NCBI GenBank assembly: GCA_937862885.1
Contig: CALMEE010000008.1
Coordinates: 62,001 to 126,000, forward strand
Reading direction: 5' to 3'
Length of the DNA: 64,000 nucleotides
From: an uncultured Planctomycetaceae bacterium
GTDB taxonomy: Bacteria; Planctomycetota; Planctomycetia; Pirellulales; Pirellulaceae
Shown: positions 38,773 to 45,003 of the stretch, in pieces
How the letters are laid out: every line of letters starts with the position of its first letter
Position numbering within the stretch: the first letter of the stretch is position 1
Program-made: the position numbers and the translations under genes
Notes under the pieces: generated by a model
Seen by the model: only the letters and a program-made list of their open reading frames with translations
Database searches by the model: none
What the model was told of the DNA's origin: nothing

Positions 38773-39441
38773 GAACTTGCTAATCGTATAGCACGAAGAA
38801 ACTCCCAACCTTCTAGAAATTCGTGTCCAATTGGCAGACCCGTTAATTTCTTACGCCGCGATTTAGGAGGTTTATGTTCCTCAAGCAGAACCTAACCAGA
38901 ATTTACAAGAATTTAACCAATTTGCCAGAACGCTTCTGAACTGAGGACTCGCCGAATTGTAAGCTACGCGCCGGTCACCTTGCGTGCGGTCGACGTCGCA
39001 TAAAGAATACGCAAATCTGTGAAAAGAGTTCCTTGCTGCGGCGCGATGGAATTCGCCGGATGGTATTTCTGTGTACGCATGGCATGCCGTTTTTCGGTCA
39101 CGATAGCCAGAACCGATACGCTAAAATGCCGTTTTTCCCGTTTGCTATGTACGGCAAAATTGCGATTTGACTAAAATCAAAGAGGTACGCAAAATTTCGT
39201 GCAAACAAGCTTACACCATTAGACCGTTGCAAGCGGATCGAAACAATTTATCCAGAACTTGGACAAGACGAGTACGCGTTAATGGCGCTGCTGAGCGGGT
39301 CGAAAATCAGCGACGAACTTTTTCGAATCGGCCTTCGCAGGAAACAAACGGCAACCGCGACAAGAATTCGTAAATGGCTGCCGCGGAATGAAGCCCGTTT
39401 CGCAGCAATATAACGGGAATAGGCAAAAAGCCAAATTTTTT
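38773..39441. other. Long region upstream of the ECF sigma factor
   Basis: About 670 bases ahead of the sigma gene with no gene of its own. It contains a 12-bp direct repeat (39084-39137) and AT-rich tracts. The sigma/kinase promoter should lie here. The 68-codon frame at 39167 has no SD sequence and odd composition, so I reject it. Confidence 0.5.
39084..39137 (+). repeat. 12-bp direct repeat, 42 bases apart, upstream of the ECF sigma gene
   Basis: ATGCCGTTTTTC occurs at 39084-39095 and again at 39126-39137. A period of 42 bases is four helical turns, so both copies face the same side of the DNA. It could be a pair of regulator sites or tandem promoter elements, or chance. Confidence 0.4.
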
Positions 39442-39984
39442 ATGAACCTTTCAGAGTCTCGTTTTCGCCTAAATGAAATATTGGCGCTGGTGTACGACCA
39501 GTTACGGGCCTATGCATCAAAGACATTGGATCGCGAACCTGATGGATTGACGATTCAAACAACGGATCTGGTCCATGAGGTCTACTTGCGCCTAAGTCAA
39601 CTGCGCGAAATCAAATGGGAAGACGACCAACAGGTTATGCGTGCCTCCGTTGGAGTCATGCGGCGGATTCTCGTCGACCATGCGCGGGCGAAGAGGAGTT
39701 TAAAACGATCAGCCGGTGGGCGACGCCTTTTGCTTGACGAAAACGTCGTATCGTCAAACGAAAAGGCGACAAGCGCCTTTGATTTACTGGCCGTTGACGA
39801 AGCATTGGCTAAGTTGGAAACCGTCGATGAGCGAAAGGCCGAGATCGTTGAACTCAAGTATTTCGGTGGGTTTACTGAACAACAAATCGCGGATGCACTT
39901 GATGTCTCGTTAGCAACTGTCAAGCGTGATTGGAAGATGGCAAAAGCATGGCTATACCGTGAGTTGATGGGCGAAGCTGAATAG
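39442..39984 (+). CDS. ECF-type RNA polymerase sigma factor
   Basis: A 180-residue sigma factor from the ATG at 39442 (the frame opens at 39388). Region 2 runs through ALVYDQLRAYASKTL and TTDLVHEVYLRL (residues 12-53), and a helix-turn-helix region 4 through YFGGFTEQQIADALDVSLATVKRDWKMAKAWL (about 140-172). It belongs to the planctomycete-type group whose genes lie next to Ser/Thr kinase genes. The kinase ORF starts two bases after its stop codon, so expression is coupled. No anti-sigma gene is near; the kinase may control it by phosphorylation. Confidence 0.92.
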   Translation: MNLSESRFRLNEILALVYDQLRAYASKTLDREPDGLTIQTTDLVHEVYLRLSQLREIKWEDDQQVMRASVGVMRRILVDHARAKRSLKRSAGGRRLLLDENVVSSNEKATSAFDLLAVDEALAKLETVDERKAEIVELKYFGGFTEQQIADALDVSLATVKRDWKMAKAWLYRELMGEAE

Positions 39985-39986
39985 GA

Positions 39987-42900
39987 ATGAGTGAGTTTGA
40001 GCATCGAGAACGGTGGAAGTTAATCGAAGACCTTTTCCATCGCGCTCTGGAAATCCCAACGCTGCAACGCAATGACTTCATCAAGGCAGCCTCGGCCGAT
40101 GATGAACGTATTGAGCACGAAGTCCGTTCCTTGCTTGAGGCATTCGAATGTTCTACCGAGTTTCTTGAAGACCTGGAAAACTCGGAAAGAGCTTTGTTGG
40201 ATGAGCTGTGTGATGAATTGCAACCCGCAGGCGAGCGGCAGCGCCTAAAATTCATGGCGCGCGGATCCCACAAAGACGAAGTAGGCTCCGAGCGTTCGGC
40301 AACGTTGCCAGAAAAAACGTCGCCACGCGCTGGACGTTACCGCTCTAGCTTGTCGCCACTCGAGCCTGGGTTGCCGTTTGATGTAATCAAACAGGCGATC
40401 GAATCTGAGCGCCCAGATTACGAACTCCGCGAGGAGATTGGACGTGGTGGAACTGGAATTGTCTTCAGAGCTCGTGATCACAGACTTGACCGAGACTTAG
40501 CCATTAAGGTTTTGCACCGGGGAGGGTCGCTCGGTTTCGATGAAACTACGCAAGCGGGCTTGGGCATGCTCGAACAAGAAGGGCGTGCTGCGGCGTCGTT
40601 GGCGAGTGACCACATTGTTCGCGTCTTGGAAATCGTAGACAGCAGCTATCCGTTCTTGGTCTTGGAATGGATTTCCGGCCCTTCGTTGCGGCAACTTCTG
40701 GCGAAGCACGAAACGCTTGCACCGATTGTTGCCGCAGACATTGGTCGCCAGATCGCGCGCGGAATTGGCGCTGCCCATCTACGCGGCTTGACTCATGGTG
40801 ATATCAAGCCTGCAAACGTTTTGCTTGAAGCCCAATGGGATTCAACCACGCATTCACCAGAGCTCACGTGGGAGACTGAGTTCAATTTGGAAAATTGGCG
40901 GGTAAAAGTTGCCGATTTCGGAATGGCAACGACAACGGACGTTGAAAATGAAGAAGGGCCTGCATACGCCGTCGGCAAAAAGGCATTCGATTCAAAACGA
41001 TTTGTCGGTACACCCGCCTATGCGAGTCCGGACACGTTGCTCTTGAGAAGTCCATGTGATGCGCGAAGTGATGTCTGGTCGGCTGGAGCGACATTGTATC
41101 GAATGTTGGCTGGCGTTACTCCCTATCGAGGGGCTCCACATACTATCGTTCGGCAAATGGAGAATTCAGAACCGATTCGAGCGAGAATATTGAATCCGCA
41201 GATCCCGTTGGATTTGGAGAGCATTTGCATGAAGGCGCTGGCACGCGATCCTCAGCAGCGGTACGCAAATGGCATCGAATTGGCGGAAGACTTGGATCGC
41301 TTTCTGTCCGGTTATCCTGTACTGGCGCGGCCTATTTCGAATTGGCAAAAGTTCGCGAGTTGGTCCAAACGAAATCCCAAATTGGCATGGATGTCCGCAG
41401 GATTGGTTGCCATGATCTTCGTCAGTTTTGTCGGAGCGTTGGTATTCGCCGCAGTCATGGCCAGCATGAACCGGAGGATTGTCGCGCAGACGCGAGAATC
41501 TGACTTGGCACGACTGCAACGAATCATCGAAGCTGACCCGGCCTTGCTCCCTTTGGGCCTTGATGCGTTGCCTGTCAGCGGCGAATTGGCATTCCCTCTC
41601 CTGAATAATGTCATCAACGATCCACACAGCGAATATCAAGCCAAGGTGAATGCGGCAATTGCTCTTGCGGAGTTGGGCGAGGTTAGAGCCGAAATATTAG
41701 TGGAGGCCGTCCAACGCGCAACATTGTCGCCGAACCAATGCCAAAATTTGATACGCGGGCTCCGTCATGCAAACGAGGAGTCCGTGCAACGGCTGGCGCT
41801 CGCTTTTTCCACATCCGATTCTGATGACGACAAGATCCGCTTAGCGATCGTCGCATGGAGCTTGCATGCCCCACAATTGTTTGAGCAAATCGCCGAACAG
41901 GATTTAAACCCGACTTTGCGGACTCGCTTGATCCATACGCTGCCTGATTTCCATCCGTCAATCGACGAAGTCGACACGTGGCTCTCCACGACACACAGGT
42001 CAGACGTACAGTATCTAATCTGCATGGCGTTGGCGCTGATGGCCAATAACAATGAAACGCAAAGTGTGGCGCAAAAGCAAAAAGTACTTTCCCAATTAGA
42101 GACCATTCTCAGCGTCACAAATGACCCGGGCGTCTTCTCGGCAGCAAGTACAGCCTTGTCCCGCTGGCAAGAGAGTAATGTGGTCGCTCTGTCGACGGTG
42201 ACAAATACGTCTCACTCCGCTTCGAGTCCCATGCTGACGCGAATTGAACCAGCGACCGATCAGCCGTGGCTTGAATTAGAACCGGATTTGCGGCTGATGC
42301 GTATTCCAGCGGGTTCGGCAGACCTTGGTCGAACAAGTGAGATTCTCTACAGTGATTACCCCAGGCATCGCGTCAATATTCCCAAGCCGTATTATTTGGC
42401 TGATCGGGAAACAACCATTGGCATGTTTCAGCAATTCTTGAATGATCCAGGTTATCCGCCGGCAGCGAAGCCAGATCCGTCGCAACGCATTGATCCTGAG
42501 GCTTGGGTAAGCCCTACACCTCGGCATCCGGTGCAACGCGTCTCCTGGTACGAGGCGACGATGTTCTGCAATTGGCTGAGCCATCGCTATGGCAGGCAAC
42601 CAAGGTATGAGTTTTCGGACGATCGAACGTTGGTGAAAATCAACTACGATGCCGACGGATTTCACTTACCTACGGAAGCGCAATGGGAGATGGCCTGCCG
42701 CGCGGGAAGCGAGACGATGTTTTCTTTCGGCGATGATTTCGATTTATTCCATCATTATGGCGCGTTCTCCAGCGCACGGAAAATGTCGGCAGTAATCTGC
42801 GGTTCCTTGCTCCCCAATCGATTTGGTCTGTTCGAAATGCATGGGAATGTTTGGGAATGGTGCGAAGATTGGTATTCTCCCGGCGGCGAAGTCGAGTTGA

Positions 42901-43085
42901 CAGATCCGTACGGCCCCGAGAATTCTCACACCGAAGAGCAATCGCGGATCTACCGCGGTGGCGGCATCGCAACCTCGTCCGGTGAACCAATTTCCTCGGC
43001 CCGTGGTCGCGGGTCGCCTGAGTCGCAATTCTTGAACTTGGGTTTTCGCGTGGCCTTACCGGTCTCCCCTTCCGGCAACGATTAA
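39987..43085 (+). CDS. Membrane Ser/Thr protein kinase with C-terminal SUMF1-like domain
   Basis: A 1032-residue protein. Residues 1-145 are a poorly conserved N-terminal region. The kinase domain covers about 147-430: GRGGTGIVF (152-160), K174 in AIKVL, HGDIKPAN (270-277, with HGD in place of HRD) and DFG at 310-312; all catalytic residues are present. One transmembrane helix lies near 475-500. Then comes an alpha-helical region with HEAT-like character and, from about 785, a formylglycine-generating-enzyme-like (SUMF1) domain with LPTEAQWEMACRAG and NVWEWCEDWY. The cysteine pair that copper-dependent FGEs use is missing: the stretch after RGGG has no Cys. So this domain is likely a binding module outside the membrane, not an FGE. 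Directly coupled to the ECF sigma gene. Confidence 0.93.
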   Translation: MSEFEHRERWKLIEDLFHRALEIPTLQRNDFIKAASADDERIEHEVRSLLEAFECSTEFLEDLENSERALLDELCDELQPAGERQRLKFMARGSHKDEVGSERSATLPEKTSPRAGRYRSSLSPLEPGLPFDVIKQAIESERPDYELREEIGRGGTGIVFRARDHRLDRDLAIKVLHRGGSLGFDETTQAGLGMLEQEGRAAASLASDHIVRVLEIVDSSYPFLVLEWISGPSLRQLLAKHETLAPIVAADIGRQIARGIGAAHLRGLTHGDIKPANVLLEAQWDSTTHSPELTWETEFNLENWRVKVADFGMATTTDVENEEGPAYAVGKKAFDSKRFVGTPAYASPDTLLLRSPCDARSDVWSAGATLYRMLAGVTPYRGAPHTIVRQMENSEPIRARILNPQIPLDLESICMKALARDPQQRYANGIELAEDLDRFLSGYPVLARPISNWQKFASWSKRNPKLAWMSAGLVAMIFVSFVGALVFAAVMASMNRRIVAQTRESDLARLQRIIEADPALLPLGLDALPVSGELAFPLLNNVINDPHSEYQAKVNAAIALAELGEVRAEILVEAVQRATLSPNQCQNLIRGLRHANEESVQRLALAFSTSDSDDDKIRLAIVAWSLHAPQLFEQIAEQDLNPTLRTRLIHTLPDFHPSIDEVDTWLSTTHRSDVQYLICMALALMANNNETQSVAQKQKVLSQLETILSVTNDPGVFSAASTALSRWQESNVVALSTVTNTSHSASSPMLTRIEPATDQPWLELEPDLRLMRIPAGSADLGRTSEILYSDYPRHRVNIPKPYYLADRETTIGMFQQFLNDPGYPPAAKPDPSQRIDPEAWVSPTPRHPVQRVSWYEATMFCNWLSHRYGRQPRYEFSDDRTLVKINYDADGFHLPTEAQWEMACRAGSETMFSFGDDFDLFHHYGAFSSARKMSAVICGSLLPNRFGLFEMHGNVWEWCEDWYSPGGEVELTDPYGPENSHTEEQSRIYRGGGIATSSGEPISSARGRGSPESQFLNLGFRVALPVSPSGND

Positions 43086-43692
43086 ACGGAAAAGTATTGA
43101 CCAGGATTCGTCGGCTGTTTTCGCTTAATATTTAGCCTGATAGATGGAGAGTTTTCTAATTCTGGGTGAACCACCGAGCCTACTCATTTGAATTGTCGCA
43201 ATTGAAAATTCACCACAAAGTAGATGCGTTGTCGTCCGTCAAAGTCCCGGGACGCGTTTTCAAATCCACGGCAAAAACTATCCATTCGGCATGAACTGCC
43301 AAACTTCCTTCGCTCGATGCGCGCTGATCCGGCAAAATAGTCAACATAGGTCAGCTGTATTGGTTTAAACAGTCTTGCTAAATCGATGGGTTATGAGTTG
43401 TCGAACTAAAGGACAGCGCTTCCCTAGCCCAACTTCGGCGCGCGATGTGTCGCGCTATTTGGTTAGACAGCGTTTTTCGTCCCCCCGACAAAGCATTTGG
43501 GAAATTTCGCGTTGGACTCCTTGCTAGGTGTCTAGCCGACGGGTTCGCAAGTTCTGTGTCTTTGCAATTTTTGAATCGGTTATTTGTACTGGTCCCCGAC
43601 AAGTACGCATAGCGGCAATCCATGCAGATACATTTCGTTTAAAAAAACTAAGACAAGCATTAGACAAGAATCGTGTAATGTCAGGGGACAAG
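43086..43692. other. Intergenic region between the kinase and the FadL-type gene
   Basis: About 600 bases on the same strand as both neighbours. A perfect 6-bp hairpin, GCGCGA-TGTG-TCGCGC, lies at 43440-43455 without a T-run. No terminator with a T-run and no gene with an SD sequence are seen. The upstream part of the next frame (43528-43692) is open but lacks an SD sequence and a signal peptide, so I leave it out of that gene. Confidence 0.45.
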
Positions 43693-45003
43693 ATGAGAAT
43701 GAAGCGAAACAAAATCAGGGTAGAGATCTTTTTTTTATGCAGGGTTCGCACGTTGAAGCTTCTCTGCTTTATGGGTCTCGGACTATCGTTCGCCTCATCG
43801 GTTGTCGCTCAAGGCATTGCGTTGCGCGGCGTGGGAGCCGTCAATGATGGCATGGCTGGAGCGGGTGTTGCGGCACCCCTCGATGCAGCCGGCGCTATTC
43901 ATTGGAATCCAGCGTCGATCGCTTCCTTTGATTACAATCAGGCTTCATTCGGGATGATGCTCGTTGTGCCAGACTTGGAGGTCTCTTCCAGTATTTTCGG
44001 CATCGATGGAGTTTCTCGAAGTGAATCTGGTGTCGCACCAATTCCTGTAATGGGAATTGTTCACCGCACAGCAGACCCTAGAATCAACCTTGGATTAGGT
44101 ATCTATGGGATTGCTGGATTTAAAGTCAACTACGATGTTTCTCAAACCAACCCCATCTTGTTACCGCAAGCTTCCATGGGTCTTATCCCCTCCTTGGGAC
44201 GCGTCAATATGGAAGCCGAGTTTTTCCAAATTGCGCCGACAATCTCTTACGCAATGACCGAAAGACTGTCTCTTGGCTTTGCCCCCACAATGACGCTTGG
44301 CAGACTTGCAATTAATCCGTTCATCGGTGCCCCACCTGAAGCTGGAATCTATCCAGAGTCGTCCGGTTCCAGATATCATTTTGGCGGTGGGTTTCAGGTG
44401 GGAATGCGATATTTGTTGAACGAAGATTGGGCAATTGGAGCTTCATTCAAGTCACCACAATGGTTTGAGAATTTTCGCTTCAAATCGCAGTATCCATCGG
44501 GAGCACCGTATCGTGGTGATTTGAAGTTTGATTATCCAATGATCGTCTCGCTCGGATCAGCCTATTATGGGCTGCCAGGAATCGTGTGGGCCACCGATTT
44601 CCGCTACTTCAATTATGAAGCGGCCGATGGATTTGGAGACGCTGGTATGAACCCAGATGGCTCAATAATGGGCACCGGATGGAAAGATGTATTTTCCGTG
44701 GCAACGGGTCTGCAACGCGAACTGACGGAACGATTTGCGGTGCGGTGCGGCTATGTCTTCAATACGAGTCCAATTCGCGACGACAACTTGCTGATCAATG
44801 TGGCCGCCCCAGTCATTACGCGTCATATAGCAACTGTGGGGTTCTCGTACCGCTTAACGGAGCAGCTAACGTTCTCTGCGGCGTATTTGCATGCATTTCG
44901 CAGCCGACAAACAGGCCCGTACCTGGATCTCGTTCCTGGATCAACGCTTGAATTGTCAACAGCCGCGTATGCGCTTTCGACGGGCCTAACTGTTTCCTGG
45001 TAG
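43693..45003 (+). CDS. OmpP1/FadL-family outer-membrane transport protein
   Basis: A 436-residue outer-membrane barrel. From the ATG at 43693 (AGGGGA five bases ahead) a signal peptide follows (LLCFMGLGLSFASSVVAQ). The mature N-terminus reads GIALRGVGAVNDGMAGAGVAAPLDAAGAIHWNPAS, the hatch-domain signature of FadL-type proteins, which carry long-chain fatty acids or other hydrophobic compounds into the cell. The chain ends in a strand closing in SWstop, with aromatic ending residues as in barrels. The substrate is unknown. It converges with copA. Confidence 0.93.
   Translation: MRMKRNKIRVEIFFLCRVRTLKLLCFMGLGLSFASSVVAQGIALRGVGAVNDGMAGAGVAAPLDAAGAIHWNPASIASFDYNQASFGMMLVVPDLEVSSSIFGIDGVSRSESGVAPIPVMGIVHRTADPRINLGLGIYGIAGFKVNYDVSQTNPILLPQASMGLIPSLGRVNMEAEFFQIAPTISYAMTERLSLGFAPTMTLGRLAINPFIGAPPEAGIYPESSGSRYHFGGGFQVGMRYLLNEDWAIGASFKSPQWFENFRFKSQYPSGAPYRGDLKFDYPMIVSLGSAYYGLPGIVWATDFRYFNYEAADGFGDAGMNPDGSIMGTGWKDVFSVATGLQRELTERFAVRCGYVFNTSPIRDDNLLINVAAPVITRHIATVGFSYRLTEQLTFSAAYLHAFRSRQTGPYLDLVPGSTLELSTAAYALSTGLTVSW

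Follow-up and report, generated by a model that had tools for sequence, protein, structure and literature searches.

A gene for an ECF sigma factor is followed directly by a gene for a transmembrane Ser/Thr kinase in the window, which is the 64,000-nucleotide stretch of a draft genome of an uncultured Planctomycetaceae bacterium that we analyzed. Based on sequence comparisons, the two gene products probably constitute an ECF43-type signalling module of one kinase and one sigma factor, in which phosphorylation of T59 by the kinase would switch the sigma factor on. The first-pass annotation had suggested that the sigma factor receives its signal from an outer sensor via the kinase, an arrangement that would stand in for an anti-sigma factor. 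This wiring fits the comparative data, given the conserved pairing, the lack of an anti-sigma gene among the adjacent genes and the presence of a threonine at the position of the phosphosite in EcfP and EcfK, but it cannot be considered novel, since the use of a kinase instead of an anti-sigma factor is an established mechanism (EcfP/PknT and EcfK/PknS). Whereas the sigma-kinase mechanism has already been described, the N-terminal domain of the kinase is plausibly a new lead. The features are summarized in Table 1.

Table 1. Features of the sigma-kinase locus, with positions in the window.
Feature	Position	Strand	Basis
ECF sigma factor, TIGR02999 / Sigma70_ECF, ECF43-like	39388..39984	+	PF07638 and TIGR02999 matches
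Q57-T58-T59-D60 replacing DAED, sigma region 2.2	39556..39567	+	Alignment with EcfP/EcfK
T59, aligned to the EcfP/EcfK phosphothreonine (EcfP STTA; EcfK T51)	39562-39564	+	Alignment
Transmembrane Ser/Thr kinase, 1032 aa	39987..43085	+	ATG 2 bp after sigma stop
N-terminal three-helix domain, candidate sigma-docking	40005..40205	+	Profile searches, structure prediction
Protein kinase domain, residues 145-426	40419..41264	+	Pkinase match; Lys, HGD, DFG
Single transmembrane segment, residues about 473-491	41403..41459	+	
Predicted extracytoplasmic alpha-solenoid (armadillo/HEAT-like), residues about 497-726	41475..42164	+	Structure prediction
FGE-sulfatase (SUMF1-like, C-type-lectin-fold) domain	42297..43055	+	PF03781

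In the proposed mechanism, binding of a ligand or protein outside the cell by the solenoid and the FGE-like part would activate the kinase, while the N-terminal three-helix domain would hold the sigma factor. The kinase would then phosphorylate T59, and possibly also the linker between sigma2 and sigma4, and the added charge of the phosphate would enable binding of the sigma factor to core RNA polymerase. Most of the acidic DAED, which is the beta-prime clamp-binding motif, is lost from the sigma factor, and the conserved T59 is found there. An anti-sigma factor would be unneeded, since the unphosphorylated sigma factor would be weak by itself.

The sigma factor of 198 amino acids, ending with a TAG stop codon at 39982-39984, matched PF07638 with 130 bits in a Pfam profile search and NCBIfam TIGR02999 with 176.5 bits (cut-off 126), and contains sigma2 and sigma4 only, as is characteristic of ECF43. 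The label ECF43-like is based on TIGR02999, the motif and the gene order. The start at 39442 in the first-pass annotation is a real in-frame ATG that would yield 180 amino acids, but the reading frame is open from 39388, and either start is possible. An open frame at 39173-39412 (+), located just 5' of the sigma gene and ending in ...RCKRIETIYPELGQDEYALMALLSGSKISDELFRIGLRRKQTATATRIRKWLPRNEARFAAI*, overlaps the 39388 start and has no ATG near its own start; if it is coding, the start at 39442 would be favoured. The coordinates confirmed the two-base gap noted previously between the sigma stop (39984) and the kinase ATG (39987), at 39985-39986; the kinase stop is at 43085. The neighbouring genes encode a PQQ propeller, a Tll0287-like protein, a FadL-type porin and a heavy-metal P-type ATPase, and a scan of these adjacent genes revealed no anti-sigma gene. 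Within these genes, the locus thus displays the ECF43 arrangement of an adjoining Hanks-type kinase gene and no anti-sigma gene. The FadL/OMPP1-type porin gene (43528-45003, +) is situated directly 3' of the kinase gene and is a possible target.

The QTTD motif fits the consensus QTTA of ECF43 at the DAED position (PMC8999054, PMC13147305, PMC8103513), and the replacement of DAED with a conserved threonine at the phosphosite is another hallmark of ECF43. The ECF43 pair EcfP/PknT of Vibrio parahaemolyticus resembles the window pair in that the sigma gene is located beside the kinase gene with no anti-sigma gene, and in that DAED is replaced, by STTA in EcfP, of which the second threonine is phosphorylated by PknT (PMC8999054). 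In contrast to EcfP, the window sigma factor has an aspartate at the fourth position, and T59 is a putative phosphosite, assigned by alignment. EcfK, the ECF43 sigma factor of Xanthomonas citri, has the motif QATE and is phosphorylated at T51 by PknS, but also uses linker sites (T104-S110) (PMC13147305). The T51A variant of EcfK is still functional because the linker sites serve as well. An acidic fourth residue is shared by the window sigma factor (D60), EcfK and about 16% of ECF43. Since D60 is kept, the window sigma factor may retain some activity when unphosphorylated, and an EcfK-like behaviour, being partly charged and having more than one phosphosite, is a real possibility. The window linker contains Ser/Thr residues but no clearly conserved equivalent of T106, and position 115, which is Ser/Thr in 59% of the relatives, is a leucine. 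Linker phosphosites like those of EcfK were set aside, since no single Ser/Thr column was clearly prominent.

We compared the sigma factor with 80 relatives from Planctomycetota, Acidobacteriota, Ignavibacteria, Calditrichota, Gemmatimonadota and Gammaproteobacteria. A kinase gene was located directly downstream of the sigma gene in 68 of these, and the threonine was kept in 80 of 80, including the 12 relatives with no kinase directly downstream, some of which are at contig ends; this conservation is partly built in, because the scan patterns included QTT[DE]LVHE. A comparison across 100 genomes of the family was free of this bias, and here the best sigma matches were of the QPTA/QATA type with the threonine kept (one exception, TSSS), nearly all of them with a kinase downstream. 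Sigma factors of the TIGR02999 clade had QxTA/QTTD-type motifs, almost always beside a kinase gene, whereas acidic D-x-x-D-like motifs prevailed among the other ECFs linked to a kinase. In the same family, ECFs outside the clade mostly had acidic motifs, whether linked to a kinase or not. An assignment of the window sigma factor to the D-x-x-D-type kinase-linked ECFs was ruled out, as the motif differs. An adjoining kinase gene is also shared with the other ECFs listed for phosphorylation by linked Ser/Thr kinases, namely ECF59, ECF61, ECF62, ECF217 (Planctomycetes) and ECF283 (Actinobacteria) (PMC8999054).

The first-pass annotation described the kinase architecture correctly, but missed a domain of about 60 amino acids at the N-terminus (residues about 5-70) that is predicted to form three helices. 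The domain had no match in Pfam, and a Foldseek search with its structure model gave no significant match. However, a profile of 71 such domains, including that of the window, matched residues 6-55 of PDB 9eed (E 4.5e-10), in which the 364-residue kinase chain corresponds to PknS 1-364, as judged by chain length. Thus, the window kinase shares with PknS/PknT-type kinases a helical domain at the N-terminus with homology to PknS 1-81, the catalytic Lys and Asp, the DFG motif and a single transmembrane segment. In PknS, the N-terminal region is predicted to have three to four helices and is given no function in the available text of PMC13147305.

The domain was present in 95 of the 100 kinases examined downstream of QxT sigma factors, as compared to none of the 33 that follow other ECFs and one of nine in divergent arrangement; three of the five QxT-partner kinases without it look truncated or frameshifted. 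Two Gemmatimonadota loci with QTTE sigma factors (L225 and L227) have downstream kinases without the domain and are natural test cases for docking. Across 21 genomes scanned, 102 of 118 domain matches were located at most 6.5 kb from a TIGR02999 sigma gene. In 11 genomes of the family this was the case for 41 of 45 copies; 32 of these were no more than 1 kb downstream, against a chance expectation of 0.01, and a copy was present near 40 of 43 TIGR02999 sigma genes. The corresponding numbers for 10 genomes outside Planctomycetota were 61 of 73 copies and 59 of 69 sigma genes; as these genomes were reached via sigma loci, the presence of at least one pair in each results from the selection. The domain remained linked to the sigma gene also in some reversed or divergent pairs (L004 on contig C7 of the genome that contains the window, and G011, G006 and G071).

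We tentatively suggest, at close to an even chance, that the domain is a dedicated docking domain, which would bind the unphosphorylated ECF43-type sigma factor, present region 2.2 to the kinase and confer specificity on each of the many sigma-kinase pairs that coexist in a cell. A further possibility is that it keeps the sigma factor membrane-bound and so takes the role of the absent anti-sigma factor. With regard to this docking step only, a serious contender, at somewhat below even chances, is that the domain is a dimerisation or autoinhibition module that was inherited along with the pairing. Such a module would be consistent with the existence of orphan copies (4 of 45 and 12 of 73) and with the PknS crystal, in which the region was flexible and unseen (PMC13147305). 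The domain counts are not independent, since the kinases are related, and the association clusters on the kinase-domain tree, where about four independent pairs were for and none against, which is not significant alone. However, the domain label changes 11 times on this tree, at least five of them on supported branches, the linkage persists when the gene order is reversed or divergent, and the domain is absent beside other ECFs although both sorts of kinases share genomes. Because of the kinship among the kinases and the few independent pairs, docking is put forward here as a hypothesis.

The draft genome of 5.36 Mb contains 31 PF07638 matches and about 57 kinases. In the stretches examined, 16 sigma genes, including that of the window, had a same-strand kinase gene directly downstream, and three more pairs were divergent. 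Here also, the kinase-linked ECFs outside the TIGR02999 clade mostly had acidic D-x-x-D-like motifs, and their kinases lacked the N-terminal domain. With about 57 kinases, cross-talk is possible, and 3 of 43 and 10 of 69 TIGR02999 sigma genes had no nearby partner. These numbers, and the acidity left by D60, would suit an explanation in which the kinase acts on other proteins too, control of the sigma factor is exerted chiefly via its expression or by an anti-sigma factor encoded elsewhere, and the adjacency reflects co-transcription only. We consider this improbable, since the pairing, together with a matched N-terminal domain in the kinase, is retained across phyla and the two characterised pairs use direct phosphorylation (PMC8999054, PMC13147305). 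The pairing is beyond chance, considering that both proteins score above curated cut-offs and that same-strand adjacency of sigma and kinase genes recurs across many phyla. Thus, direct control of the sigma factor by its adjacent kinase is the reading that we prefer.

The kinase domain contains the motifs AIK, HGDIKPAN (from residue 270), DFG and SDVWSxG. The first-pass annotation stressed the HGD in place of HRD and the missing cysteine pair of the SUMF1-like domain, and although both are real, they carry little weight. HGD was found in 10 of 100 kinases that partner QxT sigma factors (0 of 75 other kinases), while the orthologous kinases have HRD, for which reason unusual catalysis was rejected. 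The solenoid region had no match in Pfam, and the structure model of the ectodomain was usable for the solenoid half but not for the FGE half (3 sequences, pLDDT <50). PF03781 matched residues 771-1023 with 137 bits, above the cut-off. The segment GGSYMC(336)HRSYC(341) of the human FGE sequence, the Cys region of which agrees with PDB alignments, aligns with GGGIATSSGEP, so Cys336/Cys341 of formylglycine-generating enzymes are absent. The pair was also absent in all of the approximately 30 FGE-like domains examined, and its loss was therefore rejected as a special feature. The best PDB sequence match was a Treponema denticola variable protein, which is not an enzyme, and the likeliest role of this C-type-lectin-fold domain, judging from its sequence, is that of a ligand binder. 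That it is instead another type of enzyme, such as an EgtB/PvdO-like oxidase, is very unlikely: PF03781 includes such oxidases and there were NCBIfam matches to EgtB and PvdO, but all of these scored far under the cut-off, and both the fusion to a kinase and the non-enzymatic top PDB match speak against it.

A combination of kinase and FGE-like domain is also found in chlamydial Pkn1-type kinases, for which we know of no adjacent ECF43-like sigma factor. The solenoid-FGE ectodomain distinguishes the window kinase from PknT. Orthologous pairs with this ectodomain were found in Planctomycetota (L132/L230, L152 and L153), with sigma factors that are 51-53% identical to that of the window and have a QTTE motif. 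The L132 kinase gene, from another genus, contains an in-frame TAG (L132:5128-5130) between the solenoid and the FGE-like domain, representing a draft error or a real truncation. Sigma factors paired with FGE-kinases were also found in L203 and L214, and FGE-like kinases are located beside other ECF types in several genomes of the order (L136, L139, L141, L142, L144 and L147). In a paralogous pair of the genome that contains the window (L005, contig C121), the sigma factor is 54% identical with the same QTTD, and the kinase shows 40% identity as far as the membrane, but carries TPR-like repeats outside, as called by eye. The sensor part thus appears to be exchangeable.

Numerous parallel pairs of sigma factor and kinase, whose sensor ectodomains can be exchanged, are present in Planctomycetes and Acidobacteria, and the ECF43 papers cited here offer no explanation of how each kinase picks its own sigma factor. 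The N-terminal domain tracks the sigma class across phyla and is found also in PknS, for which structural and biochemical data have been published; this makes the question of partner choice directly testable, and it provides a sequence marker for finding sigma-kinase circuits.
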